Positions 1,743 through 18,687 of a DNA stretch of 64,000 bases are shown piece after piece. Source of the stretch: Xanthobacter agilis (GTDB taxonomy: Bacteria; Pseudomonadota; Alphaproteobacteria; Rhizobiales; Xanthobacteraceae). The notes beneath the pieces were generated by a model, which was not told the origin of the DNA, did not search any database, and saw only the letters and a list, made by a program, of their open reading frames with translations. The position numbers were made by a program, and so were the translations under genes. Numbering within the stretch: the first letter of the stretch is position 1; the number at the start of each line of letters is the position of its first letter. The stretch covers positions 1-64,000 of the forward strand of contig NZ_JABWGX010000014.1 in the NCBI RefSeq assembly GCF_021730435.1. The letters are read 5' to 3'.

Positions 1743-2180
1743 TCATGGTCTCGAATCGCTGCCCTCTTCCGAGATTTCTTGTGCCAGCCGCGGCCCCTTC
1801 GCGAGCCGCCGCCCCAGCGCCGCGACGAACGCCTCATACCGCTCCCCCGCCTTGGCTCGTGCAGCCTGGGCCGCCGGTTCGGGCAATGCCGGCGTGGTCG
1901 CCAGCCAGAACCGCACGAACACAGCCAGCGTCTCGACAGAGATGCCGACGTCCCGCTCCAGCCGGGCCATCCGTCGGTCCAATTGATCGAGGCGTTTGGC
2001 GATTGCAGCTTCCCGCTGCTCCGCGCCGTCCGGCGACAGGAAGGACGCGATGGCCGCCTCGGCGATCAGGGACTGAGGCTGGCCGCGCCGCGCAGCATAA
2101 CCGGCCAGCAGCCCAATGGTCGCCGGATCGAGATAGACCGAGATCTGCGCCTTCTTCTTGCGTAGGGCCATCACCGTCAC
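1743..2180 (-). CDS. CopG/ribbon-helix-helix-like protein encoded behind traG
   Basis: A 145-residue protein whose N-terminus (KKKAQISVYLDPATIGLLAGYAARRGQPQSLIAEAAIASFL) has the strand-helix-helix pattern of CopG-type DNA-binding proteins, followed by a helical C-terminal region with heptad-like charge. Genes of this kind usually follow traG in alphaproteobacterial ICEs and precede trbB. The GTG start at 2180 overlaps the traG stop in a GTGA; an ATG at 2171 is an alternative. Downstream of it no trb gene appears; instead the window turns to plus-strand cargo. Role in regulating or assembling transfer is inferred from position. Confidence 0.75.
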   Translation of the reverse strand: MTVMALRKKKAQISVYLDPATIGLLAGYAARRGQPQSLIAEAAIASFLSPDGAEQREAAIAKRLDQLDRRMARLERDVGISVETLAVFVRFWLATTPALPEPAAQAARAKAGERYEAFVAALGRRLAKGPRLAQEISEEGSDSRP

Positions 2181-4156
2181 AGCTCCATGCCGTCATTGGG
2201 ATCGAGCGAAACCTGCCGTGCGACGCCTTGCATGGCACGGGTCATGCGGCTGGTTCGGGCCACGTCGTCGTCGGTGTCATCGGCCAAATCGATCTCGAAC
2301 TCATTGCGGGGTTGCGCAGGTGCCTCGACCGGCTCTACCCGCGCCAGCTCCGGCTGGCGCCGCTGCTCCGAACCCGTGGTGTCCTCGTCGTCTTTGCCTT
2401 CAACCATCAGGTTGAGTTGCGATGGCGCGGGCAACGGGAGCACTGTCCAATCGTCGGGCTGGCGATCGCGAGACCCCGTGAGCTCCGGCGGGTGCAGCAC
2501 CCGTTCCCTGAACCGGTCATCCTCGTAGTATCGAGCCTTCCTCGCCCGGATCGGCGGCGTACCAGCCACCATGACGATCTCATCGGCAGGCGGAAGCTGC
2601 ATCACCTCGCCCGGGGTCAGGAGCGGGCGCGCCGTCTCTGAGCGCGAGACCATGAGATGGCCGAGCCAGGGCGAGAGCCGGTGACCGGCGTAGTTCTTCA
2701 TCGCCTTCATCTCGGTAGCGGTGCCGAGGGCATCGGAGACGCGTTTTGCCGTGCGCTCGTCATTGGTGGCGAAGCTCACCCGCACATGGCAGTTGTCGAG
2801 GATGGAGTTGTTGGGCCCGTAGGCCTTCTCGATCTGGTTCAGGGACTGGGCGATCAGGAAGCTCTTGAGCCCATAACCCGCCATGAAGGCCAGTGCGCTC
2901 TCAAAGAAATCGAGCCGCCCGAGCGCCGGGAACTCGTCCAACATGAGGAGAAGCCGGTGGCGTCCGACCTTCGCCTTCAGGTCCTCGGTCAGGCGCCGGC
3001 CGATCTGGTTGAGGAGGAGACGGATCAGCGGCTTGGTGCGGTTGATGTCGGAGGGCGGCACCACGAGGTAGAGTGTCGTCGGCGCTTTCCCGCCGACGAT
3101 ATCGGCGATCCGCCAGTCGCAGCGCCGCGTGACCTCGGCGATCACCGGATCACGGTACAGGCCAAGGAATGACATGGCGGTGGAGAGCACGCCGGAGCGT
3201 TCATTGTCGGATTTGTTCAGCAGCTCGCGGGCGGCACTGGCGATGACGGGATGCGGGCCAGCCTCGCCCAGATGAGCGGTCTTCATCATCGCGTCGAGCG
3301 TGGTCTCGATCGGCCGCTTCGGATCGGAGAGGAAGGCGGCGACGCCGGCGAGCGTCTTGTCCCGTTCGGCATAGAGAACATGGAGAATGGCGCCTACGAG
3401 GAGGGCGTGGCTCGTCTTCTCCCAGTGGTTGCGCTTCTCCAGGGAGCCCTCGGGGTCCACGAGGATGTCGGCGATGTTCTGGACGTCGCGCACCTCCCAT
3501 TCTCCGCGGCGAACCTCTAGCAAGGGATTGTAGGCAGAGGATCGCACATTGGTGGGGTCGAACAGCAGCACGCGCCCGTGCCGCGCCCGGAAGCCGGCGG
3601 TGAGCTGCCAGTTTTCGCCCTTGATGTCGTGGACGATGGCCGAGCCCGGCCAGGTGAGCAGCGATGGGACGACGAGGCCCACGCCTTTGCCGGACCGGGT
3701 CGGCGCGAAGCACAGGACGTGCTCGGGTCCATCATGGCGCAGATAGTCCCCTCCATGGCGGCCGAGCACCACGCCATCGGGACCGAGCAGCCCGGCCGCG
3801 CGGATCTCCTCGGGCTCGGCCCAGCGGGCGGAGCCATAGGTCTCGACGCGCCTTGCTTCCCGCGCCCGCCAGACCGAGAGGCCGATGGCGGCGGCGATGG
3901 ACAGGAACCCGCCCGATGCGGCGATGATCGCCCCCTCGGTGAAGATGGCCGGCGCATAAGCGTCGTAGAAGTACCACCACCAAAAGAAGGCCGGCGGGGG
4001 ATAGACCGGCCAGGGTCCCAGCAGGAACCAGGGCGGGCCGAGCCGGTCCTGAAAGCCCAGCCGCCACGCCACGAACTGAGTAGCGCCACAGGTGGTGGCC
4101 AGCACGATGGCGAAGACGAGGAGGATCTGGCCCCAGAGGATCTTGGTCGCGGACAT
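2177..4156 (-). CDS. traG: Conjugal transfer coupling protein TraG (VirD4 type)
   Basis: This 659-residue ATPase would link the relaxase-DNA complex to the mating channel at the inner membrane. Two membrane segments lie near residues 7-32 and 72-97. The Walker A site is APTRSGKGVG (151-160) and the Walker B site LLLMLDE (402-408), followed by the FPALGRLDFFESALAFMAGYG block typical of VirD4/TraG proteins. The acidic C-terminus (about 560-640) is variable and may bind cargo. Length is normal for TraG. It follows the relaxase gene by 23 nt and overlaps the CopG-like gene by 4 nt, so it is part of the long minus-strand transfer operon. Family assignment is secure. Confidence 0.95.
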   Translation of the reverse strand: MSATKILWGQILLVFAIVLATTCGATQFVAWRLGFQDRLGPPWFLLGPWPVYPPPAFFWWWYFYDAYAPAIFTEGAIIAASGGFLSIAAAIGLSVWRAREARRVETYGSARWAEPEEIRAAGLLGPDGVVLGRHGGDYLRHDGPEHVLCFAPTRSGKGVGLVVPSLLTWPGSAIVHDIKGENWQLTAGFRARHGRVLLFDPTNVRSSAYNPLLEVRRGEWEVRDVQNIADILVDPEGSLEKRNHWEKTSHALLVGAILHVLYAERDKTLAGVAAFLSDPKRPIETTLDAMMKTAHLGEAGPHPVIASAARELLNKSDNERSGVLSTAMSFLGLYRDPVIAEVTRRCDWRIADIVGGKAPTTLYLVVPPSDINRTKPLIRLLLNQIGRRLTEDLKAKVGRHRLLLMLDEFPALGRLDFFESALAFMAGYGLKSFLIAQSLNQIEKAYGPNNSILDNCHVRVSFATNDERTAKRVSDALGTATEMKAMKNYAGHRLSPWLGHLMVSRSETARPLLTPGEVMQLPPADEIVMVAGTPPIRARKARYYEDDRFRERVLHPPELTGSRDRQPDDWTVLPLPAPSQLNLMVEGKDDEDTTGSEQRRQPELARVEPVEAPAQPRNEFEIDLADDTDDDVARTSRMTRAMQGVARQVSLDPNDGMEL

Positions 4157-4179: not shown

Positions 4180-5919
4180 TCAGAGGCCAAGGCCGCGCTT
4201 GCGGCCGAAGGACCAGTCGATGCCGCCATCGGCACGGGCGACGCCGGAGACGTGCCTGCCGAGTTGCTTCTCCAGGGAGGGCGTCCAGGGCACGAACTGG
4301 AAGCCGAGCCCGTCGTCGAGCATGGCGAAGCGGCCGGAGGCGAGGGCGAAGCGCTGCCGATAGGTACCGGAGACATACTCTCCGTTTCCAGACCGCCGGA
4401 ACGGCAGGCCGCTCTCGACAGCGATCTTCTCGCTCAACGTATCGACCTCTCGCCGGCGCAACGTCTCGATCAGGTCACGGGCGAAGGCGACGCGCTGGCC
4501 CTGCCGCTCAGCCAGCCCCTCCCGAACCAGATGGTCGGCCCGGCGATCCATAGCCTCACGCACCTCGGCGCCGAAGCCGCCTTCGGAGAGCGATGCCGGC
4601 GCGCGGCTGAGCGCCTGCCGGTCGAGCCAGGTGGCGCCCGAAGCTGTGACCTGCCGGTCGATGTCGAGGTCGGAGCGGACCGCGAGGGCAACACGGGGCT
4701 GGCCCCGCCCATCCTCAAACCTCCGGAGTTCGACGATGGAGCCGGCCGCGCCGTCGCCGGCCGCATCGAGGTCGGGCAGTCGGATATGGTGGGTCCGCCC
4801 GTCGACGCCATCCACCACAGCGTAGGCTGTGCCTTTGAGCTCGTCATCAAGGCCACGTTCGACAAGCCGACCGATGATCGCACCGTCCAAGCTCTCTCCC
4901 GCGAGCACATAGCTCGCCGTGCCGCGCTCGATGCCCTGAGCGGTGAGCGCCCGATGCATCCGCTTGATGATGTCGCCGCGTTCGCCGAGGGCGCGCAGCG
5001 TCGCCTCAGCCTTCTCGTCGATGACCCATTGGCCGGGGCCGATCTCGTCGGCGAGGCGGAGGGCCTCGAGCTTGCGCAGCCGGCCGACCTTCATCGGCAG
5101 GAAGGCATCCGGCCCGCCGTCGGCATCGCGGGCCACGTCGATGACACCGGCCTCGCGCTGGTCGCGAACCAACTGGCGATCGAGCTGGGTCCAGCCCTCC
5201 GCCTCCACCTGCCGCTCGACGGCATGGTGGATGTCGAGGTCGGTGCGTGGGCCCAGTTCCTGGGTCACAAGATCCTGCGCGCGAGCGCGCATGCCTTCCT
5301 TGATGTAGTCGCGGGAGATAACGAGGTCCTGGCCATCGTCGGTCCGGCCCCGCACCAATATGTGCAGGTGGGGATTGTCCGTGTTCCAGTGGTCGACGCC
5401 GACCCAGTCGAGCTTTGTGCCGAGGTCCTTCTCCATCTGACCGACGAGGTCGCGGGCGAAGGACCTGAGGTCGGTCATGTCGGCTGCATTCTCGGGCGAC
5501 ACAATGAAGCGGAAATGGTGCCGATCGTCGGCGCACCGCTCAGCGAAGGCGCGGCCGTCCCCCTCCTCGGCGCCCGGCCCGAACAGGCGGGCCTTCTCTC
5601 CGTCCCGGGTCACGCCCTCCCGGCGCAGGTAGGAGAGATGCGCAGTCAGCGGTGTGGCACGGGCGGTGTGGCGCACCACGCGGGTCTTGATGACGACGAC
5701 GCGCGAGCGACCCGTGAGCAGGCGGTTGGCCTGGATGCTCGCCGTCCGCCCGCGGCCGAAGTGGGAGCGCTTGCTGGAGGTGAGGCGACCGGATCGGGAG
5801 ACGTGGCCGCCGGCCTTCTGGGCAGCAGCGAGGGCCTGCGCGATGAAGGGACGGGACCTCTGGGCCCGGGAGGAGCGGATGCGGCCGGGCCTGACACGGA
5901 ACTCGCGCTCATCGGCCAT
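4180..5919 (-). CDS. Relaxase/mobilisation nuclease with DUF3363 C-terminus (RlxS/VirD2-like)
   Basis: The 579-residue protein should nick oriT and pilot the transferred strand. Residues 177-186 read HWNTDNPHLH, the three-histidine metal-binding motif of MOBP/VirD2-type relaxases. Tyr97 in the HLSYLRREG block is a candidate nicking tyrosine (inferred). The part after about residue 200 fits the DUF3363 region seen in ICE relaxases of Rhizobiales. The basic N-terminus (1-80) is rich in Arg. I chose ATG 5919, inside the coupled small ORF, over an upstream in-frame start at 5982 because MADEREFRVRPGR matches the usual N-terminus of the family and translation would be coupled. Its oriT was not identified. 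Confidence 0.92.
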   Translation of the reverse strand: MADEREFRVRPGRIRSSRAQRSRPFIAQALAAAQKAGGHVSRSGRLTSSKRSHFGRGRTASIQANRLLTGRSRVVVIKTRVVRHTARATPLTAHLSYLRREGVTRDGEKARLFGPGAEEGDGRAFAERCADDRHHFRFIVSPENAADMTDLRSFARDLVGQMEKDLGTKLDWVGVDHWNTDNPHLHILVRGRTDDGQDLVISRDYIKEGMRARAQDLVTQELGPRTDLDIHHAVERQVEAEGWTQLDRQLVRDQREAGVIDVARDADGGPDAFLPMKVGRLRKLEALRLADEIGPGQWVIDEKAEATLRALGERGDIIKRMHRALTAQGIERGTASYVLAGESLDGAIIGRLVERGLDDELKGTAYAVVDGVDGRTHHIRLPDLDAAGDGAAGSIVELRRFEDGRGQPRVALAVRSDLDIDRQVTASGATWLDRQALSRAPASLSEGGFGAEVREAMDRRADHLVREGLAERQGQRVAFARDLIETLRRREVDTLSEKIAVESGLPFRRSGNGEYVSGTYRQRFALASGRFAMLDDGLGFQFVPWTPSLEKQLGRHVSGVARADGGIDWSFGRKRGLGL

Positions 5920-6166
5920 GGCGTGACCCCGCAAGGTGCGAGAAGTCCTGCGGTGGCAGCGGCTTAAGTGTTCGACACACATTGCCGATCAACGCCGCAA
6001 TGTGTGTTTGGTCGCGAATTCCCCAATAGAAACAACCGCCCAACCGCAGCGCACCCTGCGCCCTTTTATCTCGCCATCGGTCGGTCGTATCCCAGTCCTT
6101 CCGTCCCGCCGTTCGCTCGAACGGCAGAAAGCCCGACAGGGTGCGAATGAGCCCGGTCGCGGTCAT
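5909..6166 (-). CDS. Small coupled ORF between transglycosylase and relaxase, unknown function
   Basis: This 85-residue reading frame is not recognised. It starts in an ATGA overlap with the stop of the lytic transglycosylase gene and ends 11 nt inside the relaxase gene, so its limits are exactly what translational coupling would need. The sequence is basic with a C-terminal LPPQDFSHLAG; no membrane segment or known motif is seen. The tight packing is the main reason to believe it is translated. It could simply be a bridge that keeps ribosomes moving from 6163 to the relaxase start. Confidence 0.6.
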   Translation of the reverse strand: MTATGLIRTLSGFLPFERTAGRKDWDTTDRWRDKRAQGALRLGGCFYWGIRDQTHIAALIGNVCRTLKPLPPQDFSHLAGSRHGR

Positions 6167-6948
6167 GGCGCACCTCCCGCGCCGCCGCGAGTAACGAACA
6201 GGCCATTGGACTGCGGGCCGATGGCGGAGACGTCGCGCACATCTGGTGCGGGCAGCACGCCATCCGTCTGCGTTCGATCCGTCGCCAACGTGCGGACCGG
6301 CTGCAGAACGAAGATCGGAGCGCCGGCCCAGAGCGGCGGCTCTGCCGGAAGTGTGACGGAGCGACCGGGCGCTTCCGATTCGGCTTCCGCGCCCGCGATG
6401 ATCGGCGCCAGCTTGTCGACATAGGCGCGCGTCTCCGGGGGCAGCGGGCGCCCCTTGCGCGAGGCCTCATAGCGGCCCGGCCCCGCATTGTAGGCGGCGA
6501 GGAAGCCAGGACTGCCGTAGCGATCGAACAGCTCTCGCAGGTAGGCCGCACCCGCCATGATGTTGTCGTGCGGGTCGTAGGGGTCGTCGCCGAGGCCATA
6601 GTGGACGCGCAGCTCGGCCCAGGTCTGCGGCATGATCTGCATTAGTCCCATGGCGCCTTTGGGCGAGGTCGAGCGCGCGTCGCCGTCGCTTTCGGCGCGC
6701 AGCACGGCCCGGATCCAGGTGGCTGGAATGTCAAAGCGTTCCGCGGCCTCCGTGACGAAATCGGCGTAGCGATCGGTCGGCGATGGCAGCTTCTGTGTTG
6801 CCGAACCCTCCGCCGGGAGTGCTGCCGCCGACCAGCCGAAAGGCATTCCGGAAAGGAGGACGAAGATGATTACGCGACGCCGAGCGTACGCTCGCATCGA
6901 TACGCGCACGGGGGTGAAGACATGCGGGAACGGATCCGCCTGCAGCAT
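6163..6948 (-). CDS. Lytic transglycosylase (VirB1/TrbN-like)
   Basis: The 261-residue protein has a secretion signal (ARRRVIIFVLLSGMPFGWSAAALPA, about residues 22-46) and an SLT domain with the catalytic Glu in VLRAESDGDA, then KGAMGLMQIMPQTW and the AYNAGPGRY motif. It would open peptidoglycan in the periplasm for the mating channel. The start at 6948 is preceded by GAGAGG at a good distance; an internal ATG at 6897 would give a cleaner signal peptide but lacks a ribosome site. It lies 45 nt after traF and overlaps the next small ORF by 4 nt. Confidence 0.9.
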   Translation of the reverse strand: MLQADPFPHVFTPVRVSMRAYARRRVIIFVLLSGMPFGWSAAALPAEGSATQKLPSPTDRYADFVTEAAERFDIPATWIRAVLRAESDGDARSTSPKGAMGLMQIMPQTWAELRVHYGLGDDPYDPHDNIMAGAAYLRELFDRYGSPGFLAAYNAGPGRYEASRKGRPLPPETRAYVDKLAPIIAGAEAESEAPGRSVTLPAEPPLWAGAPIFVLQPVRTLATDRTQTDGVLPAPDVRDVSAIGPQSNGLFVTRGGAGGAP

Positions 6949-6993: not shown

Positions 6994-7539
6994 TCAGCGC
7001 GTCGGCGCACGCCAGACGAAGTGCCCGTCGCCGGCCTCGTCGGTGTAGAGCGGCACGGCGCGGCCGATCACGGTGCTGGCGGGCAGTGGCCCGAAATACC
7101 GGCCATCCAGACTGTCCGGCACGTCGAAGTTCATGAGGAAGAGCTCGCCCTGGACGATGCGCCGGCAGCCGCGCCAGACCGGCAGCGGTCGTCCCATGCG
7201 ATCGCGCTCCAGCGCCTCGCCATAAGCCACGCCATCGACGGTGATGACGCGGTCCTTGCGGCAGACGTCCTGTCCGGGAAGTGCTGCCACGCGCTTCATC
7301 AATGGGACGCCCGCGCCCACATAGCCGCGCTCAACCAGGAAGCGGGCGAGCGCTGCAGGCGGCGTGACGGCGAGGAGGTCCGTGACCCCGAGCCTGCGCA
7401 CCGGCTCGATGGCATAGAGCCCGATGGGCGCGCTTGCGGAAACGTTCCACACCAGCTTCAGCGGTGTCGGAACGAGCGCGGCGGTCGCCACCCCCATCAC
7501 CGAGAAATAGGTGACCATCACAGTGCCGAAGCGGGTCAT
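6994..7539 (-). CDS. traF: Conjugative transfer signal peptidase TraF (S26 family)
   Basis: TraF-type S26 peptidases mature or cyclise the conjugative pilin. The 181-residue product has a membrane segment near residues 7-30, the serine motif SASAPIGLY with the catalytic Ser, and the lysine box MKRVAALPGQDV, followed by the usual RRIVQGELFLMNFDVPDSLDGRYFGPLP region. I take ATG 7539, which overlaps the stop of the DUF2840 gene in an ATGA, rather than an upstream start at 7566. In ICEMlSymR7A the excisionase gene is linked to traF; the same linkage is seen here with more genes in between. Confidence 0.92.
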   Translation of the reverse strand: MTRFGTVMVTYFSVMGVATAALVPTPLKLVWNVSASAPIGLYAIEPVRRLGVTDLLAVTPPAALARFLVERGYVGAGVPLMKRVAALPGQDVCRKDRVITVDGVAYGEALERDRMGRPLPVWRGCRRIVQGELFLMNFDVPDSLDGRYFGPLPASTVIGRAVPLYTDEAGDGHFVWRAPTR

Positions 7540-8057
7540 TCCTCGCACTCCCGGCGCTTCAGCCACGCCTCATGGCGCTCAGTCGTGTAGGCGCGGGGCA
7601 TGTGGCCGGCGACCAGACGGTTGTGGACGTGCCGCCAATGGTCGGGGGCGACATCTGCGCCGTTGACGCCGATGGCCTCGACGGCATCGATATGCTGGAG
7701 CACCTTCTCGACCTTCGGCCAGCCGTCGGCGCGCAGCAGAATCTCCCCGCCGGGGCGCACGAAGGGCAGTGTCTGGTACGCCTCACCCGGCGCGACGGCA
7801 CGCACGACATCGATGCGCGAGACCACGGTGCCGAAGTCGTTCGACGCCCAGCGCACGAAGGAAAAGATGCTACCCGGCGCGAATGAGACGATGCGCCGGC
7901 TGCGATCGAGAATCTGCGCATGAGCCGGGCGGCCGAAGCGAATCCAGTTCTCGATCCGCTTCTCGATCCAGGTCAGTTCGACGTGGGTCAGCGTGTCGAC
8001 GAGCGGCGGGGCCGGCGCAAAGGCGATAACAACAGAGGGCACGGACGTGCCGGTCAT
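7536..8057 (-). CDS. DUF2840 domain protein of the ICE transfer operon
   Basis: The 173-residue protein matches the DUF2840 family in outline: VELTWIEKRIENWIRFGRPAHAQILDRSRRIVSFAPG near the N-terminus and DVAPDHWRHVHNRLVAGH near the end. The family is found almost only beside traF and parA in alphaproteobacterial ICEs and has no established activity. There are no membrane spans. It overlaps the ribbon-helix-helix gene (4 nt) and traF (4 nt), so all three are probably translated together. Confidence 0.88.
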   Translation of the reverse strand: MTGTSVPSVVIAFAPAPPLVDTLTHVELTWIEKRIENWIRFGRPAHAQILDRSRRIVSFAPGSIFSFVRWASNDFGTVVSRIDVVRAVAPGEAYQTLPFVRPGGEILLRADGWPKVEKVLQHIDAVEAIGVNGADVAPDHWRHVHNRLVAGHMPRAYTTERHEAWLKRRECEE

Positions 8058-8305
8058 GACGCATCTCCTGGGGTTGGGGGAAACTCGCGAGCAAGGAGGT
8101 CGCGGAGCATGTCGGCGACGGTCTGGCCACGGCCGAAGGCGGCGATCTTGATGCGCCCTCGCAGGTCGGGCGTGACGTCGATGGTGAGCCGCGCGGTAAA
8201 GCCGCCGGCGACGTCATTCGACGTCTTCGCCTCCGCAGCCTTGATCCACCGCTCCGGATTGGCCGGCCGCGCGGCGAAGCCCTTGCGGGTCGGCGGCGCG
8301 CTCAT
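8054..8305 (-). CDS. Ribbon-helix-helix protein, probable partner of ParA
   Basis: This 83-residue protein has a basic N-terminus and a C-terminal half (FTARLTIDVTPDLRGRIKIAAFGRGQTVADMLRDLLAREF) with the strand-helix-helix pattern of small centromere-binding or CopG-like proteins. Its gene overlaps parA by 4 nt, the usual place for the DNA-binding partner of a type Ib partition ATPase. The centromere it would bind is not identified; the direct repeats in repA are a candidate. Function is inferred from fold and context. Confidence 0.75.
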   Translation of the reverse strand: MSAPPTRKGFAARPANPERWIKAAEAKTSNDVAGGFTARLTIDVTPDLRGRIKIAAFGRGQTVADMLRDLLAREFPPTPGDAS

Positions 8306-8955
8306 GGTAGGCGTCCATGACCGGCGAGACCGACGATCTCCGCCGCCAGCGCCGTAATCTCGCGCGCAGCCGGGCCGCCTTCGTCCAGCTCGCTGACGAG
8401 CCGCCCGGACTGTGCCGACATGGCGAAGGCGACGCGCTGGCCGATGGTGGTCGCGAGTACCGGCGGATCGTGATCCGCCAGCGTCGCGGCGGTCTCACGG
8501 GCGAGCACGGTGCGGGCACCGCAGCGGTTCAGCACGAACCGCGCAGCAAGCTCCGGCCGGTAGATGCGAGCCTCGCTGAGGAGGGCCAGCATCTCGGCGG
8601 AGGCCCAGCCGTCGAGCGGCGACGGCTGCACGGGGATCAGCACCAGGTCGGCGGCGAGCAGCGCGGAGCGCATGAGGGCGGCGACACGGGGCGGCCCGTC
8701 GATGACCACATGGTCGGCATCCCGCGCCAGCTCGGGGGCCTCCCGGTGCAGCGTGTCACGGGCGAGGCCGACGACGCCGAACAGGCGCGGCAAGCCCTCG
8801 CGGCTGCGTTGCTGCGACCAGTCGAGGGCCGAGCCCTGGGGATCCGCATCGATGAGCGTGACGCGCCGGCCGCCGCTCGCCCACGCGCCGGCAAGGTGCA
8901 AAGCGAGCGTCGTCTTGCCGACGCCACCCTTCTGATTGAGCAGCGCGACGATCAT
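8302..8955 (-). CDS. parA: ParA-family partition ATPase
   Basis: The 217-residue protein begins with the deviant Walker A motif KGGVGKTTLALHLAGA (residues 9-24), followed by the conserved LIDADPQGSALDW and VIDGPPR segments of ParA/Soj proteins. The short length and lack of an N-terminal DNA-binding domain place it with type Ib partition ATPases. It would stabilise the excised circular ICE or its replicating form. It overlaps both repA (4 nt) and the ribbon-helix-helix gene (4 nt), giving a repA-parA-partner cassette. Confidence 0.92.
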   Translation of the reverse strand: MIVALLNQKGGVGKTTLALHLAGAWASGGRRVTLIDADPQGSALDWSQQRSREGLPRLFGVVGLARDTLHREAPELARDADHVVIDGPPRVAALMRSALLAADLVLIPVQPSPLDGWASAEMLALLSEARIYRPELAARFVLNRCGARTVLARETAATLADHDPPVLATTIGQRVAFAMSAQSGRLVSELDEGGPAAREITALAAEIVGLAGHGRLP

Positions 8956-10106
8956 CGACGGCCTCCCGACGCATGCGAGGGAAGCAGATCGGCCGCGGAA
9001 AGAGGTTCTGGCTCCTGAAACCCGTCTTTACGGAAAGACGGAAGGCATTCACCTTTAGAAGTGCGCGGATTGGCGGGCTTTTGGGCCGTCTGAGCGCGGT
9101 TATCCACATCGCCCGCGCGCCTTTTAAAGTTAGACTCTATGTTAGACTCTAAGTTAGGAGCGCGATTTTGCGTTTTCGGGCTTGGAGTTAACCCCTGTTT
9201 CGGTTCCTGAAAGCACGAGGGGCCGGTTCCTGATGGCACGTGGCACGGGGTTCCCGATGGCACGAAGGGATTCACAGGCTGTCCACAGGCGGGCTCGAAG
9301 GCGAGCAGCGTGCGCGCACCCGCGTCACACTCCAGGAACAGGGTGTAGCCGGGCAGCGGCTGGCGACGGATGATGTCCCGCAGCTCGAAGGCGAAGCGCT
9401 TGAAGGGCGAGAGGCTGCCGGACTTGAAGTAGAGGTGGCGGAAGTCGAAGCGCCAGCCGTTGTGCTGGCGGCCGCCGTGCTTGCGCACCAGCCGGTAGAG
9501 CCAGCGGTCGAGCCCGCCCGTCAGGTCGAAGTACGCCCGGTCGATGGTGAGGACGAGGGCGTCCTCCACGATGGCGCAATAGAACCAGTCGGGGACGATG
9601 AGCTCGATTCCGGCGGGCCTGCCATCCCGGTCGGTGCGCTCCTTCCACTCGTTGATCCAGGAGAAGCGATGGCGCCGTCCCTCGGCCGGCTGGCGGATCG
9701 AGGTGGACACGGTGGTGGACTGCAGCCGGTCGAGGGCGGCCTTGAGGCGCTGGTAGTCCCGGATCGAGGTGCCGCGCCCCACGAACCTGAGGATTTCATA
9801 GGGGGTGGCGACCATGAAGCGCGACGTGCGCAGGCCGGCGTCGCGAGCTTCCACGATCTGGCTCGCCGCCCAGATCAGGATGTCGGCGTCCCAGATGGTC
9901 GCCATGCCATGGTCAGGCACGGCCTCGACCCGGATGGAGACATCGCCGGCGGCAAAATCGATGGGCGCGATACGATGGGTCTTGGAGAGGGAGAAGAAGG
10001 GATAGGCCATGAGATCCTGCGCATCTCGTGGCGCGAACGCGCCGGGAAGCGCGCGGAACAGATCGAGCTGTCCGCGCTCCGGCTGGGAGCGATGCCGCGC
10101 CACCAT
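8952..10106 (-). CDS. repA: Replication initiator RepA (TrfA/RepA-like)
   Basis: A 384-residue initiator of the type found in alphaproteobacterial ICEs and plasmids. After an N-terminal leader (QLDLFRALPGAFAPRDAQDLMAYPFFSL) come winged-helix-like blocks, including IRDYQRLKAALDRLQSTTVSTSI and LDRWLYRLVRKHGGRQHNGWRFDFRHLYFKSGSLSPFKRFAFELRDI. The last 110 residues are low-complexity and basic, and the DNA encoding them carries repeats and a DnaA box (see 9100-9287), so the tail may exist for the DNA rather than for the protein. It overlaps parA by 4 nt. Replication of the excised ICE is inferred from the family. Confidence 0.85.
   Translation of the reverse strand: MVARHRSQPERGQLDLFRALPGAFAPRDAQDLMAYPFFSLSKTHRIAPIDFAAGDVSIRVEAVPDHGMATIWDADILIWAASQIVEARDAGLRTSRFMVATPYEILRFVGRGTSIRDYQRLKAALDRLQSTTVSTSIRQPAEGRRHRFSWINEWKERTDRDGRPAGIELIVPDWFYCAIVEDALVLTIDRAYFDLTGGLDRWLYRLVRKHGGRQHNGWRFDFRHLYFKSGSLSPFKRFAFELRDIIRRQPLPGYTLFLECDAGARTLLAFEPACGQPVNPFVPSGTPCHVPSGTGPSCFQEPKQGLTPSPKTQNRAPNLESNIESNFKRRAGDVDNRAQTAQKPANPRTSKGECLPSFRKDGFQEPEPLSAADLLPSHASGGRR
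9100..9287. other. Origin-like cluster inside repA: iterons, DnaA boxes, AT-rich tandem repeat
   Basis: Three 16-bp repeats, GGTTCCTGAAAGCACG (9202-9217), GGTTCCTGATGGCACG (9225-9240) and GGTTCCCGATGGCACG (9249-9264), recur every 23-24 bp, about two helical turns. A perfect DnaA box TTATCCACA lies at 9100-9108 and a weaker one, CTGTCCACA, at 9279-9287. Between them GTTAGACTCTA occurs twice (9129-9139 and 9141-9151) in an AT-rich stretch that could serve as an unwinding element. All lie in the 3' coding part of repA. Origin function is inferred. Confidence 0.6.
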
Positions 10107-10121: not shown

Positions 10122-10403
10122 TCAGCGTGCGAAGCGGTGGGGCTCGGCAATTCCGGGCAGGCACTGGCGCTTTGCCGGCAGGACGCAGCCGCGGGGATCG
10201 GAGGTGGAGGTGACGGCGCCGCGGGCGACCCAGGCCTGCAGGTCCTCGACGGAATAGACGACGCGCCCGCCGAGCTTGCGATAGGCGGGACCGGTCCCGT
10301 AGGTGCGGTGCTTCTCGAGCGTCCGGGGCGACAGGCTGAGGAAGACGGCGGCTTCCTTGGTGCGCAGGTAGCGCGGCGGGAACGTGGCAGCATCAGGTCG
10401 CAT
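10122..10403 (-). CDS. rdfS: Excisionase/recombination directionality factor, RdfS-like
   Basis: The 93-residue protein has a winged-helix MerR/AlpA-type motif: RYLRTKEAAVFLSLSPRTLEKHRTYGTGPAYRKLGGRVVYSVEDLQAWV. This is the pattern of excisionases such as RdfS of ICEMlSymR7A. The ATG at 10403 is preceded by GGAGGT seven bases upstream, a far better start than an upstream in-frame one at 10442. The gene follows the fseA-like gene by about 140 nt and precedes repA by 15 nt, so its expression would also drive the replication and transfer genes. The symbol is by analogy; the attachment site it would act on is outside the window. Confidence 0.8.
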   Translation of the reverse strand: MRPDAATFPPRYLRTKEAAVFLSLSPRTLEKHRTYGTGPAYRKLGGRVVYSVEDLQAWVARGAVTSTSDPRGCVLPAKRQCLPGIAEPHRFAR

Positions 10404-10543
10404 GGATCGAACCTCCGTGGGCGATCTCGGGCCGCTGGTCATCAGCGGCGGATGGCGATCACGGTGGCGAAGGGCAGCTGTCGAGGGGGATGGGGAAGTT
10501 GAGGGGGGCGAAAATCCCCACCCTCAGGATGCCGTCGCTACGG

Positions 10544-11312
10544 CTATGGTCTTCTGCGATGACGCAGGAGCTTGAGATAACCGCCGCCGATCATGGCGAG
10601 GCCACCTTTGACGAGGCCGATGACCTTGTCGCGCAGCGCCGAGGTTTTCCAGGGCTCGGACGCAACGCGCTTGGGGCCGTAAAGGACCGCGGCGATGTCG
10701 CGATAGCTGGCGCCGTTCGCCCGCCCATCGGCCGCCAGCATCATGGTGCGCAGCCGGCCACGCTGCTGCACCGTGATGCGGGTGTCGGGGATCGCCGGCC
10801 GACCCTCGACCGCGCGCCAGAAGCGGGTCAGTGCCTCAACCCGCCCTATGGTGTCCGCATCCAGCGGGATCAATGCCGACAGCGGCGCGTCGGGGTGAGT
10901 CCCGGTCAGCAGCAGCACCTGCGCGGCATGAGGTGCCGGACCATGGACCCAGTATCGGCCCTCGGTGCTATCCCGCGGCGCAACCATGCCGCCGAACGAC
11001 ACGTTGGGCGCGCCCGGAAGAAACGCGGGCTGTTGGGCGAGAAGCACGATGGCCGGATCGACAACCGGCGACCACGGGACGTTCTGTTCCACGGCGGAGA
11101 GAGATGGCCGCGCGGCGAAATCGCAGCCCCCAGCGTTGCTCCACCTCCCGGGGGAGCGGGTCGGCGTCCGAGCCGGCCTTCACGAGGGACTGGTAGTGGT
11201 CCTGATAGGTCTCGTCCCGGCGCAGGCATTCCCAGGCGAGGCCCTCCACCGACAGCGTGTCGAAATAGACGTAGCTGGCATCCTCTCGCCAGCGTGATGT
11301 ATCAGGCTTCAT
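10544..11312 (-). CDS. fseA: FseA-like DUF6499-DUF2285 activator joined by +1 frameshift
   Basis: Two overlapping frames together make one protein. The first, from ATG 11312 (GGAGG just upstream), encodes a DUF6499 domain ending in WGLRF (residues 61-65). The second, open to the stop at 10544, encodes a DUF2285 helix-turn-helix domain. A +1 slip at TTT-C (11120-11117) joins them into about 255 residues with a continuous family-like sequence across the join. In ICEMlSymR7A, msi172 and msi171 are fused in the same way by tRNA-Phe moving from UUU to UUC, giving FseA, which activates rdfS. Without the slip, the first frame ends at 10968 with 114 residues. The second frame has no convincing start of its own. 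A sequencing error is the alternative. Confidence 0.8.
11117..11120 (-). other. Probable programmed +1 ribosomal frameshift site (UUU-C)
   Basis: On the minus strand the codons CGA TTT CGC end the WGLRF motif. Sliding one base forward puts tRNA-Phe on TTC, which its GAA anticodon pairs with better than TTT, and continues into the frame that encodes the DUF2285 domain. The motif and the slip agree with the mechanism shown for fseA of ICEMlSymR7A. Confidence 0.7.
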
Positions 11313-11439: not shown

Positions 11440-11700
11440 TCAGACAGCACGGCTGAGGAGGTCCTTGTAGCCGCTGGAGGCCAACCATCGGGCCCGGGCC
11501 AGATGGCTGTCATGGACATGACGGGCACGTTCGGACTCCCGAGCCGCTTCGATGCCGAACAGCACCGAGGCGATCTCCTCCCAGTCGGCGCCATCCGCCG
11601 TGGCGTCGAGCAGGCGTGCGTAGAGCTTGATGTGCGCCCGGTCGTAGTCCGTGAGCTCGGGAGCGATTGGGACGGTGTCTGCAAACGCGTCGGTCACCAT
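11440..11700 (-). CDS. qseM: QseM-like antiactivator (single DUF2285 domain)
   Basis: An 86-residue all-helical protein with the DUF2285 pattern: DYDRAHIKLYARLLDATADGADWEEIASVLFG, then a helix with ERARHVHDSHLARARWL and GYKDLL. QseM of ICEMlSymR7A is also a small free-standing DUF2285 protein; it binds TraR and FseA and blocks excision and transfer. Here it lies about 130 nt upstream of the fseA-like gene on the same strand and is divergent from an XRE gene, the same layout as qseM/qseC. An AGGAAG ribosome site precedes the ATG. The role is inferred from family and layout; no TraR/TraI quorum genes are in the window. Confidence 0.75.
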   Translation of the reverse strand: MVTDAFADTVPIAPELTDYDRAHIKLYARLLDATADGADWEEIASVLFGIEAARESERARHVHDSHLARARWLASSGYKDLLSRAV

Positions 11701-11834: not shown

Positions 11835-12083
11835 ATGGAGATCCGAGAGGTGTTCGCCCGGAATTTGAGGGCTGCGAGGCTCACCAAAGGCCTATCGCAG
11901 GAAGAGCTTGCCCATCGCGCCGGGATCGATCGCACATACATCAGTTCGTTGGAGCGCAGCGTCTACAACGCCAGCATTGATGTCGTGGATCGACTGGCCT
12001 GCGCCCTTGATCTCGATGCCGCCGCATTGCTGAAGCAACCCGCGGCCAACGTCCCGGGCGAGCCAGAGAATACGTTCGAGTAA
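11835..12083 (+). CDS. qseC: QseC-like XRE-family repressor
   Basis: The 82-residue protein is almost entirely one HTH-XRE domain: FARNLRAARLTKGLSQEELAHRAGIDRTYISSLERS followed by IDVVDRLACALDLDAAALL. It is divergent from the QseM-like gene, with paired operator-like repeats in between, so it probably represses one or both promoters and acts as a bistable switch for ICE transfer, as QseC does in ICEMlSymR7A. The region before the start lacks a ribosome site, which would fit weak or leaderless translation. A strong hairpin lies behind it. Confidence 0.8.
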   Translation: MEIREVFARNLRAARLTKGLSQEELAHRAGIDRTYISSLERSVYNASIDVVDRLACALDLDAAALLKQPAANVPGEPENTFE

Positions 12084-12157: not shown

Positions 12158-12484
12158 TCACTCGCCGCGCCGCCCGCTGGGACGGGACCAGATGAGGCTG
12201 AAGGTGTCGGCGTCCTCGTCGTCGAAGAGGTTGGCGTAGATCGGGGCGTTGAAGCTCGGGTCGTCGAGCTTGAGGCCCAGATAGTCGCGGCCCTCGCTGG
12301 AGCGCTTGGACCAGGCGGCACCGATCTCGATCCGGCCCACCAGGACCCGGTGGCTGGGGGCGTTCTCACCGTTGGTCCGCAGGTCCGGGACGATGCGCAC
12401 GCCCTTGGCCTGGACGCTGAGGGTTACGATCTCGCCGGAGAACTCGTTCGCGCCGGTCTTCTTGAAGGTGCCGATGGTGGCCAT
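12158..12484 (-). CDS. DUF736 domain protein
   Basis: The 108-residue protein matches DUF736 closely: MATIGTFKKTGANEFSGEIVTLSVQAKGVRIVP at the start, a GRIEIGAAWSKRSSEGRDYLGLKLDDPSF core, and a C-terminal LFDDEDADTFSLIWSR. DUF736 genes are among the most constant markers of alphaproteobacterial ICEs and large plasmids; a single-strand DNA-related role has been suggested but not shown. It is monocistronic here, convergent with the XRE gene, with a long non-coding stretch upstream. Confidence 0.92.
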   Translation of the reverse strand: MATIGTFKKTGANEFSGEIVTLSVQAKGVRIVPDLRTNGENAPSHRVLVGRIEIGAAWSKRSSEGRDYLGLKLDDPSFNAPIYANLFDDEDADTFSLIWSRPSGRRGE

Positions 12485-14229: not shown

Positions 14230-15153
14230 TCACGCGCCGCCCGACCCGAACCGATAGACCGGGATGCCGAGCTTGCGGGCCTTGTCGGCGAGATTGTCCT
14301 GGATGCCGGTGCCGGGGAAGATGATGACCCCGATGGGCATGACCGAGAGCATCTGGTCGTTGCGCTTGAAGGGGGCGGCCTTGGCGTGCCGTGTCCAGTC
14401 CGGCTTGAACGCGATCTGGGGCACCTTGCGCGCATCGGCCCAGCAGGCGGCGATCCGCTCGGCGCCCTTGGGCGAACCGCCATGCAGCAGCACCATGTCG
14501 GGGTGCTTGGCGTGCACTTGGTCGAGCTTCGCCCAGATGAGCCTGTGATCAGCCGTGTCACCACCGGAGAAGGCGATCTTCGGACCTGCGGGCATCAGCA
14601 CCTCGGTCTCCGAGCGCCTGCGGGCGGTGAGGAAGTCGCGGCTGTCGATGAGGGCTGCGGTGAGGTGCCGATGGTTCACCATGGATCCGGTGCGTGGGCG
14701 CCAGGCTGAGCCGGTGTGCCGCTCGAAGGCGTCGGCGGCTTCGTCGCGCATCAGCTCGAAGGCATCGCGGCGCTCCACGAGGCTCTGCCCCTCGGCGATG
14801 AGGCGTTCCAGTTCCACCGAGCGCACCTCGCTGCCATCCTGCTCCTGCTGGCTGCGGCGTTGGCCCTGCTCGTTATCGTCAAGGGTGCCCGAGATACGGC
14901 CGGCGGCACGGTGGAAGAGATGGACGGTGGACCACAGGAGGTCGGGAAGGTCGGGCTCCAGGCGGGTGTCCTGCAGGGTCGCGATGAGAGCATCGAAGAT
15001 GTCGGCGATGGCGCCGGTGATGTGGTTGGCCTCGGGAAGGGGCCGGGGATCGGACTCGTCGTTGAGCGGGCGGTAGCCGTAGAGCTGGAGTTCCTGCAGC
15101 AGGTGATCGGTGGGAGACGAGGCGTGGCGGGGCTCGTCGTGCTCGGTGCTCAT
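14230..15153 (-). CDS. DUF2493 domain protein
   Basis: The 307-residue protein ends in a DUF2493 domain, a Rossmann-like nucleotide-binding fold related to DprA/SLOG. It shows KIAFSGGDTADHRLIWAKLDQVHAKHPDMVLLHGG, then GAERIAACWADARKVPQIAFKPDW and a final VIIFPGTGIQDNLADKARKLGIPVYRF. The first 170 residues are helical and specific to the ICE version of the family. The ATG at 15153 (MSTEHDEPRH) was preferred over an upstream in-frame start because the upstream residues are Arg-rich filler. The biochemical role is unknown. A long, highly structured leader lies upstream. Confidence 0.88.
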   Translation of the reverse strand: MSTEHDEPRHASSPTDHLLQELQLYGYRPLNDESDPRPLPEANHITGAIADIFDALIATLQDTRLEPDLPDLLWSTVHLFHRAAGRISGTLDDNEQGQRRSQQEQDGSEVRSVELERLIAEGQSLVERRDAFELMRDEAADAFERHTGSAWRPRTGSMVNHRHLTAALIDSRDFLTARRRSETEVLMPAGPKIAFSGGDTADHRLIWAKLDQVHAKHPDMVLLHGGSPKGAERIAACWADARKVPQIAFKPDWTRHAKAAPFKRNDQMLSVMPIGVIIFPGTGIQDNLADKARKLGIPVYRFGSGGA

Positions 15154-15272
15154 TGGATGCTCCGTCGGTTGGACCGCAGCCCTGCGGCCTTCATGGCGAC
15201 GAAGCCGGCGGGCGGGACGGACCTGCACCCCGCGAGAAACGCGGGGCCGGAGCGTGAGCGGAGGATGGCGGA

Positions 15273-15367
15273 GGCCGACGATTTTGTTTCGCGATGGAAA
15301 GGCGGTGGCGGGGGTCCCGCGACGCCTGCGTCGTGGGGGAAACACCGCCGACGGAAAATCGTCGGCC
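15273..15367. repeat. Nested palindrome in the leader of the DUF2493 gene
   Basis: Three nested stems: an outer 13-bp pair GGCCGACGATTTT (15273-15285) with AAAATCGTCGGCC (15355-15367); a middle 7-bp pair GGCGGTG (15301-15307) with CACCGCC (15343-15349); and an inner hairpin CGACGC-CT-GCGTCG (15320-15333). The right arm can also fold on itself, GCCGACG (15347-15353) with CGTCGGC (15360-15366), which excludes the outer and middle stems. It lies in a 341-bp gap (15154-15494) with no other feature and would be transcribed into the DUF2493 mRNA leader. Confidence 0.65.
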
Positions 15368-15494
15368 GCAGCCGTTGCCGGTCCGGGACGACTGCTGGCC
15401 GATCGCCCTCTGGAAGGCCTGGCTGCGGGTCCTCTGTCGACGGTGAGCCTCAGAGCATTCCGTTAGCGCATCCCCGCTCCCCGGCTCCTTCAAG

Positions 15495-16532
15495 TCACGG
15501 GCTCAGCATCATGAAGCGGCTGACATCCTCGGGGACAAGCTGGCATCGCAGTCCTGCCAGCAACGCATCGACGCCAAACGCGCGTAGGTCCTCGTTGAAG
15601 TCTCCGAGCGCCGGCGAGAGCACGATAGCCTCGATCGCGGCAGCATTGGCTCGTGCAATGAGGCTGTCTCGCGCCCTGTCGCCGGCCGGATCGCTGTCGC
15701 GGACGATGTAGAGCCGCCGCAGTCCAGGTGGGAAGGCGATGACTGCAAGGTGTGCGGCCGAGAGCGCCGCTGCCATCGGAAGGTTGGGCAGCGCCGTGCG
15801 CACGGAAAGGATGGTCTCGATGCCCTCACCGGCGGCCAGCACGTCATCAGCCTCGCCGAAGCGAACGGCGTGCTCCAGCAGGTGACCCATGGAGCGCCGG
15901 GGCGTGGTGATGGCTGCCTTGTCCGACCCGTTCGGGGCGAGCCATGTCCGATGCACGCCCGTGATCCGTCCGCTGAGACCCGTGACGGCAGCGACCATGG
16001 CCGGCAAAGGCTGGCTGGGGGTGTGCGCATCGGACCGGTAATAGCAGCGGGGGTGAAAGCGCAGGCTTCCGGTTTCGTGCAAAGCCGTGATGCAGCGGTT
16101 CCGCAAATACGCCTCTACGATTGTGCCCGGAATCGGCCGTGCGGCGGCAAACAGCCGTCGTGCCGAGATGACAGGATCACGTGAGGAGTTTTCCGTTTTG
16201 CACAGCGGAGCCTGCGCCTCATGCACTGATCGGGGAATGCCCAGAAACATCTCGGCCTCGGCGACCACCTCGCTGAAGCTGGACAGGCCCCGGCTTTCCC
16301 GGATTAGGTCGAGCAGGTCACCGTGCTCCCCCGTCGCCGCGTCGGTCCATTTGCCGGCGGGGCCTTTCGCACTGTCCCGCAGCCGCACAAACATCGAGCG
16401 GCCGGGCGAGTTGCGAACGTCGCCCACCTGCCAGTAATGCCCCTGCCTCTGGCCAGCGGAGAGATAGTGGCGGCAGACCGCCTCCGCCCGTTGGCCGAGC
16501 TTATGGGCCAAGTCATGGGCCGCATCCGACAT
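15495..16532 (-). CDS. Toprim domain primase-like protein (DUF7146)
   Basis: The 345-residue protein has an N-terminal region with HYWQVGDVRNSPGRSMFVRL and GDLLDLIRESRGL, as in ICE/plasmid DUF7146 proteins, and a C-terminal toprim domain. The toprim acidic residues are visible in VLAAGEGIETILSVRTALP and in LYIVRDSDPAGDRA. Such proteins resemble the catalytic half of DnaG-like primases and may prime the transferred strand. A zinc-finger domain is not obvious. The ATG at 16532 was chosen over a longer open frame because MSDAAHDLAHKLGQRAEAV fits the family start. It lies about 90 nt behind the ParB-like gene. Confidence 0.88.
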   Translation of the reverse strand: MSDAAHDLAHKLGQRAEAVCRHYLSAGQRQGHYWQVGDVRNSPGRSMFVRLRDSAKGPAGKWTDAATGEHGDLLDLIRESRGLSSFSEVVAEAEMFLGIPRSVHEAQAPLCKTENSSRDPVISARRLFAAARPIPGTIVEAYLRNRCITALHETGSLRFHPRCYYRSDAHTPSQPLPAMVAAVTGLSGRITGVHRTWLAPNGSDKAAITTPRRSMGHLLEHAVRFGEADDVLAAGEGIETILSVRTALPNLPMAAALSAAHLAVIAFPPGLRRLYIVRDSDPAGDRARDSLIARANAAAIEAIVLSPALGDFNEDLRAFGVDALLAGLRCQLVPEDVSRFMMLSP

Positions 16533-16623
16533 GGGGGACGCTCCAACAGAAAGGCCCGCCGTCCGGACCACGCGACAGGGGGAGCGCGAGGCGACGGTCG
16601 GCGGGCCAGGTTGCCCGGGAGGG

Positions 16624-18687
16624 TTATTCGGCAGCGATCGGGGGAGAGATCGCTTCGGGCTCCTCACTATCGGCGAGGTCCTCGCCGTCGCCCATGGCCG
16701 TTTCGCCGTCGATCTCCGCCGTTTCTTCGCCGGCGATGTCGCAGGGCTGGGTCCGCAGTGCCTCCGGGAGCCAGCCGCTGTCGGCGAGAAGGGATTCAGC
16801 CTCCCGCGCCATGTCGCCCTTCTTGAGGTGGGCGATCCGCTCCGCCGCACGTTCCCCCTTGGCCTCAGTCACCGCCTGCAGGATGCGGGCCTTGGTGACC
16901 CGGCCGAGGAAGGTGTCGACAGTGGGCTTCCACCCAGCCGCCGCCATGTCGAGCGCCACCGCCTGTGCCAGCCGGTCCGCATGAGCGAAGGCCCGCGGAC
17001 GACGGTTCCAGGCCTCGTGCACGGCATTGACCGAGAGGCTCACCACATGGGCGAACAGGGCGGCTCGGCTGTCGCGGTCCCAGCCGTTCAGGGTGTCCCA
17101 GAGCGTGCCCGGCTCCTTGGGCAGTGCCTTGGCCCATCTCTCATGCCGGACACGGATCGCCTCGGCCGAGACGCTGTCGTTGAGGCCCGGCGCCTGGGCG
17201 TTGAAGGACACGCTCTTGAGATCGAGCTCAAGGCAGCTGTCCCAGCCGTAGGCATAGAAGGCCTTCAGCGTCAGGGCGTGGACCGCCGCAAGGAAGGCCA
17301 CATCGGGCTGCTCGCCCAGCGTGTGGCGCAGGCCAAGGGTCCGATGGGTGGTCAGCTCCGTGAGTAGCCGGTCGGAGATCGGCGCGAGGCCGTCTTCTTC
17401 CTCGGGCTCAGCAGGGGCATCGGGTGTGGCCGCCTCATGGAGAGAAGTCGATGCCACATGGTTTGCATCATCGGTCTCGGCGGAAGTGGCATGCTCCTCT
17501 TCGACCGGCACTTCGTCCTCCGGGCGGACATAGCCCCGCTCCACCCGGAGCTTGCCGTCCTGGGCGATGCTGACGAAGGCGCCGGCGCGGCCGACCTCCG
17601 CCGGATCGAACGCGAGGGGGCGCGTATCAAAGGCCTCCAGCACCGCCTCGAGCTCACCGAGCCGCGCATCGACCTCCTCGGGAAGCTCGTCGGCATCGGC
17701 ATGTTCTTCGGAGAGGCGATCATATGCGGCCTGGGCCGTCGCCCGAGCTGCCTCCTCCTCCTCGGTCAGGGGCGTCGGCTCACCCCGCAGCTGGCGCAAG
17801 CCGTAGGTGTGGCCATAGGCGAAGTCCGGCGCCACCTCGATCCACTTCCAGCCTTCGCTGCGGATCACGTCGGCCTCGGCAGCGAGCTTGTCCGCCACCA
17901 TCCGGTCGACGAGAGCGACATCCTGCAGCCAGCCGCCGTCGTCGCCCTGAAACAGGTCGCGCAGCACCGTGCCGCCGGCCGTCTCATAGGCCTCGATGCC
18001 GATGAAGCGGGCCCGCTTGTCGGATGCCCGGACCGCGCCCTCGGTCAGCATGCGCCGGATGGCGTAGGGCTGCTTGTCGTAAGCCTGGGCGAGACGCTCC
18101 AGCACCTGCTCCTGCCGCTCATGATCGCCCGACACGGTGAAGGCCATGAGCTGATCGAGGGTGAGGCCGTCCTCGGCGTAGACGTCGAGGAGCTTCGGCG
18201 ACACGGAGGCAAGCTTCAGCCGCTGCTTCACCACCGCGACCGAGACGAAGAAAGCGGCGGCGATCTCCTCCTCGGACTGGCCCTTCTCCCGCAAGGCGAG
18301 GAAGGCGCGGAACTGGTCGAGGGGATGGAGAGGGGCGCGCTGGACATTCTCGGCAAGGGAATCCTCCTCGGCGATGCCGCCCTCGCGAACGATGCAGGGT
18401 ACCGGCGCGGTCCTGGCGAGGCGCTTGCGCTTCACCAGCAGTTCCAGCGCCCGGTACCGCCGCCCGCCGGCCGGGATCTCATAGATGCCGGTCTCGACGC
18501 CATCCACATCGATCACGGCTCGGACATTGAGGCCCTGGAGCAGGCCGCGCCGGGCGATATCCTCGGCGAGTTCCTCGATGGACACGCCCGCCTTCACCCG
18601 GCGGACGTTGGACTGGCTGAGCACCAGCCTGTTGAAGGGGATGTCGCGGGAGGACGAAAGGGTGATCTTCTGAACGGCCGTGGCCAT
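16624..18687 (-). CDS. Large ParB/RepB/Spo0J-family DNA-binding protein
   Basis: The 687-residue protein begins with a ParB N-terminal domain (SQSNVRRVKAGVSIEELAEDIARRGLLQGLNVR, the GGRRYRALELL box, and DSLAENVQRAPLHPLDQ) and a helix-turn-helix (EEEIAAAFFVSVAVVKQRLKLA, about residues 135-156). The long acidic C-terminal part (400-687) is specific to ICE/plasmid versions. It is not paired with a ParA here; the ParA cassette is 8 kb away. Such proteins are CTP-dependent DNA clamps in the ParB superfamily, but the role in ICEs is not established. ATG 18687 was chosen by the conserved N-terminus. Confidence 0.9.
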   Translation of the reverse strand: MATAVQKITLSSSRDIPFNRLVLSQSNVRRVKAGVSIEELAEDIARRGLLQGLNVRAVIDVDGVETGIYEIPAGGRRYRALELLVKRKRLARTAPVPCIVREGGIAEEDSLAENVQRAPLHPLDQFRAFLALREKGQSEEEIAAAFFVSVAVVKQRLKLASVSPKLLDVYAEDGLTLDQLMAFTVSGDHERQEQVLERLAQAYDKQPYAIRRMLTEGAVRASDKRARFIGIEAYETAGGTVLRDLFQGDDGGWLQDVALVDRMVADKLAAEADVIRSEGWKWIEVAPDFAYGHTYGLRQLRGEPTPLTEEEEAARATAQAAYDRLSEEHADADELPEEVDARLGELEAVLEAFDTRPLAFDPAEVGRAGAFVSIAQDGKLRVERGYVRPEDEVPVEEEHATSAETDDANHVASTSLHEAATPDAPAEPEEEDGLAPISDRLLTELTTHRTLGLRHTLGEQPDVAFLAAVHALTLKAFYAYGWDSCLELDLKSVSFNAQAPGLNDSVSAEAIRVRHERWAKALPKEPGTLWDTLNGWDRDSRAALFAHVVSLSVNAVHEAWNRRPRAFAHADRLAQAVALDMAAAGWKPTVDTFLGRVTKARILQAVTEAKGERAAERIAHLKKGDMAREAESLLADSGWLPEALRTQPCDIAGEETAEIDGETAMGDGEDLADSEEPEAISPPIAAE

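Follow-up and report, generated by a model that had tools for sequence, protein, structure and literature searches.

A split fseA-type gene of Xanthobacter agilis, probably joined by +1 ribosomal frameshifting, and codon-level conservation of its slip site

Introduction

The closest described counterpart of the gene studied here is FseA (msi172-msi171) of ICEMlSymR7A from Mesorhizobium japonicum R7A, in which the DUF6499 and DUF2285 domains are likewise split at a +1 site (PMC10359603, PMC8627217). Members of this family are recognized by an N-terminal DUF6499 domain with an AWEFLRRN-like motif and a C-terminal, positively charged DUF2285 domain (PMC10359603). The frameshift product acts as a dimer that binds DNA and activates rdfS, upstream of which lies an FseA box (total length 28 bp) formed by a pair of inverted hexamers separated by 15 or 16 bp, and the UGGGGG sequence at the fseA slip site resembles a ribosome-binding site (RBS), for which the authors suggest stalling (PMC10359603). 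In bacteria, UUU_Ynn sequences are prone to a +1 shift without an adjacent stop codon; weak E-site pairing has been proposed to raise frameshifting in release factor 2 (RF2) genes, and a possible E-site role has been considered for UCC in the influenza sequence UCC_UUU_CGU (PMC5009743).

Here we report a computational analysis of an fseA-type locus within a 64,000-nucleotide stretch of the Xanthobacter agilis genome (hereafter, the window). An earlier note on this DNA had proposed that an FseA-type activator is encoded here in two frames, joined only by a +1 slip at a UUU-C inside a WGLRF motif. We describe the frames and domains of the locus, the frame relation and codon usage of its homologues, a natural variant of the slip codon, and the genes and candidate regulatory sites around fseA.

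Results

A split gene with two domains in two frames

The gene is located on the minus strand and has three parts.

10968..11312, minus strand: fseA part 1, the 0-frame ORF with DUF6499 / Trans_reg_dom (PF20109, 75.5 bits; motif AWECLRRD)
10544..11116, minus strand: fseA part 2, the +1 frame past the slip, with DUF2285 / RovC_DNA-bd (PF10074, 124.2 bits; ORF from GTG 11092)
11115..11132, minus strand: frameshift cassette TGG GGG CTG CGA TTT CGC (UUU at 11120-11118, skipped C at 11117)

The 0 frame starts with ATG at 11312, reaches UUU as codon 65 and ends with TAG at 10970-10968 after 114 codons; DUF6499 is contained within the first 65 codons, and what follows the slip in this frame is an unconserved tail. 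The +1 frame, which alone contains DUF2285, is free of stops from 11179 to its TAG at 10546-10544, and the third frame is interrupted at 10908, 10872 and 10848. Both domain scores exceed their Pfam cut-offs (23.8 bits for PF20109 and 26.4 bits for PF10074). The earlier claim that the two frames join solely through a +1 slip at UUU-C was confirmed with exact coordinates, the WGLRF motif (TGG GGG CTG CGA TTT followed by C) being at 11132-11117, and the predicted joined protein has 255 residues. Its AWECLRRD corresponds to the AWEFLRRN-like motif of the family, and the +1 site that joins the ORFs, the RBS-like UGGGGG and the positively charged DUF2285 (net +12 in the last 109 amino acids, counted from the sequence) are all features of FseA. 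We conclude, with a probability of about 0.93, that the locus is an fseA gene whose DUF6499 and DUF2285 parts are joined by a +1 ribosomal slip at CGA-UUU-CGC.

The +1 relation is common to most homologues

The 231 loci that we gathered come partly from named genomes and partly from samples taken at the level of the family, order, class and phylum; part of the match lists was taken by place (20 and 80 loci) among the matches listed. The counts leave out four loci without DUF6499 (L089, L090, L091, L127), six without DUF2285 (L070, L100, L103, L104, L105, L111) and 29 duplicates, and a plasmid search (78 records) was kept apart from them. The first pass, with 132 loci, had given 100 split loci and 11 in frame 0. 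Among the 192 distinct two-domain loci of the full survey, 179 are +1 split, 12 are in frame 0 and one is in +2. The proportion of 179/192 is not comparable with the about 61% of 4709 FseA homologues reported to be frameshifted in a set that spanned the Proteobacteria (PMC10359603); in our collection, most weight falls on the host family and its order.

The comparison with homologues that had been suggested as a check on the slip site shows UUU followed by C or U in 169 of the 179 split loci, in the same alignment column in 167 of them and one codon later in L088 and L131. In L131, UUU is followed by an immediate frame-0 UGA, as in release factor 2 genes, and in L015, L021, L023 and L024 the slip sequence is UUU-U, not UUU-C. 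The remaining split loci have UGU (n=9) or, in the case of L017, CTT CCT CCC. In the genome of X. agilis itself we found four fseA-type loci, including that of the window, all with CGA-UUU-C; the other three (L002, L003 and L004, on contigs C20, C18 and C11) are further split genes. Among the matches listed for the DUF2285 half, Xanthobacter loci come closest (90-95% identity), and an identical 18-base cassette is found in ten loci of one cluster, which represent eight genomes with three loci in Xanthobacter sp. YC-JY1. Frame relation, slip codon, domains, rdfS-like neighbour and UUU-Y conservation all fit the FseA identity proposed in the earlier note, and frameshifting at this locus would follow by homology.

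A one-base difference in a single genome would give the same picture if it arose from a sequencing or assembly error or from a recent inactivating frameshift, and three of the loci surveyed indeed give the impression of decay or misassignment (L055 and L188, whose domains share frame 0 but are separated by a stop, and L146, in +2). However, the +1 relation is common to 179 of the 192 loci and to the three other loci of the same genome, and the identical cassette at close loci in seven other genomes speaks against the missing base that the earlier note had named as grounds for refutation. The two halves, taken apart, have dN/dS values of 0.10-0.54 (window versus 10 relatives; 19 of the 20 comparisons gave a value), well below 1 in both. 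We regard an error or recent inactivation as having a negligible chance of being the explanation.

Ten of the 12 frame-0 loci are uninterrupted and represent single-ORF relatives that have both domains in common with the window. CGA ahead of the site is present in none of these ten; UUU occurs in the column in L074 and L076 and one codon later in L075.

The second half has no conserved start of its own

Alternatively, DUF6499 and DUF2285 could be separate proteins that act in trans as a complex, the second being made by reinitiation or from GTG 11092, the start of a 182-aa ORF in the +1 frame 8 codons past the slip. This GTG is not preceded by any Shine-Dalgarno-like sequence. Among 92 representatives of the split loci, an ATG or GTG occurs within 25 codons past the slip in 67, a Shine-Dalgarno-like match accompanies it in 7, and the median position of the first such codon is 23 codons past the slip (TTG uncounted in all cases), showing that starts are not conserved. 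Protein-level conservation of the +1 frame already sets in at the fourth codon, and two separate proteins would have no use for the synonymous conservation of UUU and its upstream codons described below. An independent start of the DUF2285 half was rejected on the start and Shine-Dalgarno counts, and two proteins acting in trans are very unlikely.

The slip cassette is conserved as nucleotides

The codon usage expected at the site was derived from the remaining codons of these genes in 176 loci, grouped into 92 clusters at 70% protein identity with one weight per cluster; the split loci L088, L131 and L017 were kept out of these statistics. UUU accounts for all 90.6 of 90.6 weighted Phe sites (100%; 23.0 or 25% expected), and CGA precedes it at 48.4 of 58.8 weighted Arg sites, as opposed to 6.5 expected (82% versus 11%). 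At the Leu position, UUG or UUA (UUR) occupies 54.1 of 81.8 weighted sites versus 10.5 expected (66% versus 13%), and at the Gly position GGG occupies 64.8 of 91.0 versus 10.8 expected (71% versus 12%); unweighted, GGG is the Gly codon in 126 of the 179 split loci. The cassette of the window itself has CTG in place of UUR.

A scan covered 14 columns of the 0 frame surrounding the site, 30 of the +1 frame past it and 18 in the vicinity of AWE.LRR; the GGG, UUR, CGA and UUU columns gave z scores of 9 to 21. The 0-frame column directly 3' of UUU has an excess of CCC (z 11.6) and CGC (z 6.4), which we ascribe to Pro/Ala codons of the +1 frame, where the fourth codon is a conserved Pro (CCN; C at 90% and 93% in its two C positions); all other scanned columns remain below z 5. 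Because the codon excess is confined to these columns, the cassette GGG-UUR-CGA-UUU-Y is conserved as nucleotides, beyond the protein motif WGLRF.

The runs G5 and U3 at the slip site would also suit transcriptional slippage as the means of joining the frames. But the U run here is only three bases long, and a slippage run would make the conserved CGA and UUR codons superfluous. For R7A, moreover, mass spectrometry and mutation reportedly placed a tRNA-Phe slip, from UUU to UUC, at this site. Slippage of the polymerase is an extremely unlikely substitute for a ribosomal frameshift.

Other candidate stimulators were considered. Plain folding, which has pseudoknots outside its reach, gave no signal of downstream RNA structure in four windows of the 92 representatives (mean z 0.02, -0.16, -0.18 and -0.04), and a stem-loop or pseudoknot stimulator 3' of the slip was rejected for want of a folding signal; the 60 nt ahead of the site have a mean z of -0.59 (s.e.m. 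0.12) in the same representatives. A slow A-site codon was likewise rejected: CGC or CCC comes next in 150 of the 179 split loci, and both are common in these genes. Nor is a slow codon evident in the window, where UUU is followed by CGC, with 47.5% the most frequent of the Arg codons in this set of genes.

Neither the synonymous upstream codons nor the UGU variant appears in the literature compared here, and we claim no novelty. For CGA at the slip site, a literature search among papers other than the 2015 PNAS paper and its commentary gave one paper, on Yersinia pestis BipA. A term search found no occurrence in the main text of Antonov 2013 (PMC3711429).

A UGU variant of the slip codon

UGU replaces UUU in a clade of eight loci (L047, L048, L051, L121, L123, L124, L209, L218) and in the divergent L050. 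The genes of the clade look maintained, given dN/dS values of 0.07-0.45 in both halves, and the eight share descent and may represent one event. With its GCA anticodon, tRNA-Cys should not fit GUC under standard pairing rules and should have no option for +1 re-pairing at UGU. CCC-N adjoins UGU in seven of the eight clade loci, where the slip could have shifted to this quadruplet; however, L218 and L050 have UGC and CGC, respectively, at that place. Both contain CCC-N elsewhere in the frame overlap (in L218, 33, 63 and 75 nt after the first base of the W codon; in L050, 33 nt before it), and a slip at these other quadruplets is possible.

Outside the family, a search of 397 genomes of the order, a sample with few known-UGU genomes, matched the UGU pattern in four (one in the backward control). 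None of these four matches has WE.LRR upstream of it in its own frame; they look like chance and were set aside.

Tentatively, and with the odds against it, we propose that GGG (pairing with the anti-Shine-Dalgarno sequence), UUR (adding a U to this pairing), CGA (in the E site, a weak I-A pair) and G-U wobble reading of the P-site codon might jointly drive the slip, in which case the UGU clade would be a natural bacterial +1 shift without P-site re-pairing, like one view of yeast Ty3.

Genes around fseA and candidate regulatory sites

The neighbouring genes of the window are as follows.

2177..4156, minus strand: TraG coupling protein (PF02534, 336.3 bits)
4180..5982, minus strand: DUF3363 protein, presumably a relaxase (RlxS-like; PF11843, 310.2 bits)
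6163..6948, minus strand: lytic transglycosylase (PF01464, 83.6 bits)
6994..7566, minus strand: TraF-like S26 peptidase (PF10502, 96.8 bits)
7536..8057, minus strand: DUF2840 protein (PF11000, 262.5 bits)
8054..8305, minus strand: small ribbon-helix-helix-like protein (PF23807, 26.4 bits, slightly below the cut-off of 27)
8302..8955, minus strand: ParA-type ATPase (PF13614, PF01656)
8952..10106, minus strand: replication initiator protein A (RPA; PF10134, 297.4 bits)
10122..10403, minus strand: rdfS-like recombination directionality factor, HTH_17 (PF12728, 40.3 bits; GGAGG ahead of ATG)
10492..10519, minus strand: candidate FseA box, GGGGAT - 16 bp - TTCCCC, 28 bp, matching the published geometry
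11440..11700, minus strand: qseM-like antiactivator, DUF2285 alone, 86 aa, net charge -5 (PF10074, 34.7 bits)
11835..12083, plus strand: qseC-like HTH_3 regulator, divergent from qseM (PF01381, 54.5 bits)
12158..12484, minus strand: DUF736 protein (PF05284, 112.2 bits)

Of the trb, traG, rlxS, traF and rdfS backbone of ICEMlSymR7A-like elements, the window has traG together with rlxS-like, traF-like and rdfS-like genes, and the region appears to be the end of such an element that serves regulation and processing. The trb genes are usually found beside traG. In this genome, CagE_TrbE_VirB-family genes are located on contigs C11, C30, C20 and C18, with none on C5, the contig of the window; on C11, C20 and C18 they share the contig with the other three fseA-type genes. 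Beside traG, at 99-1658 of the window, are short-chain dehydrogenase, F420_oxidored and SnoaL_2 genes, possibly cargo or the result of rearrangement, and large ORFs with SLOG (YspA), Toprim + DUF7146 and ParB_N domains at 14230-18954 are perhaps more mobile-element backbone. DUF736 genes are present on every element compared in PMC8627217. Unlike ICEMlSymR7A, the window has the RPA, ParA and DUF2840 genes between rdfS and traF; a Rep_3-type initiator and DUF2840 are found in this place on non-ICESym ICEs, among which Tn4371 is named (PMC8627217).

As the earlier note had stated, the rdfS-like gene comes right after fseA, its ATG at 10403 being 140 bp past the fseA stop. The hexamers of the candidate FseA box between them are complementary at 5 of 6 positions, and the box was compared with the published one by geometry, not by hexamer letters. 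The distance between its near hexamer and the presumed rdfS ATG downstream, 89-94 bp, differs from the 62-67 bp of the published logo (PMC10359603). GGGGAT-15/16-TTCCCC occurs in 11 of the 19 loci listed, mostly close relatives, where by our own estimate 1-2 chance matches per 220 bp are expected. The loci of Xanthobacter sp. YC-JY1 (L005, L010, L012) combine the same cassette with a similar intergenic box, with a spacer of 15 in L012. The sequence CTTCGCCACCGTG (window 10460-10472, upstream of rdfS) is also found in a number of distant loci, L015 and L022 among them.

The window also resembles ICEMlSymR7A in the UGGGGG by the WGL codons (here, TGGGGG at 11132-11127), the presumed rdfS target, and a qseM-like gene with an adjacent qseC-like one (PMC10359603, PMC8627217). 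In R7A, fseA belongs to the traI2-msi172-msi171 operon, which is driven by TraR (PMC5882170), unlike the window, where fseA is directly behind the qseM-like gene. The product of the latter fits QseM in having DUF2285 without DUF6499 and a negative charge. The quorum-sensing layer of R7A, in contrast, was not found: a search for the LuxR-type autoinducer-binding domain PF03472 gave no matches at E up to 0.001 in this genome (99.99% complete, 66 contigs). With no PF03472 domain found, FseA would be available as a target to QseM, provided that QseM is active, and a TraR of this type would not.

Discussion

The frames, domains, gene order and slip-site conservation described above are direct observations, and from the published R7A system the following course of events can be predicted by analogy. 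DUF6499 would be translated in frame 0, and at CGA-UUU-CGC a minority of ribosomes would slip by +1: the peptidyl-tRNA-Phe would leave UUU for UUC, with the C at 11117 being skipped. Ribosomes that slip at this low rate would make the 255-residue FseA, and the others a 114-residue product with the unconserved tail. By analogy, FseA would bind DNA, probably at the inverted repeat at about 10492-10519, and turn on rdfS and the downstream transfer genes, and the qseM-like product would probably act as an antiactivator that blocks FseA by binding its DUF6499 part.

A tRNA search found tRNA-Phe GAA in the genome; it would read UUU by wobble and re-pair fully on UUC. The G run of the cassette may pair with the anti-Shine-Dalgarno sequence, and we suggest CGA as a weak E-site partner. 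Among the 44 tRNA matches examined, an incomplete list (no Ile GAT, no Leu TAA) in which the Arg anticodons are ACG, CCG and TCT, CGA has a single reader, tRNA-Arg ACG, which we assume to carry inosine. One further call with anticodon TCG overlaps tRNA-Ser on the opposite strand and was discarded as an artefact.

As in prfB, the release factor 2 gene (PMC5009743), a slip codon rich in U is preceded here by a sequence that may act as a Shine-Dalgarno stimulator. Unlike prfB, the window has no stop beside the slip, the protein is unrelated, and release-factor autoregulation is inapplicable. The G run is 6 nt from UUU, farther than in prfB, where it is 3 nt from the slip codon.

The mechanism is already published in rhizobia, and the gene of the window is a clear further example. 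It extends the evidence for frameshift-gated transfer switches by an independent genus and by four loci of a single genome. Annotation pipelines split fseA-type genes (PMC10359603), and because of this, activators of ICE excision are missed. The codons GGG, UUR, CGA and UUU provide a testable list of those expected to set the frameshift rate, and the natural UGU variant raises the question of whether tRNA re-pairing is needed.
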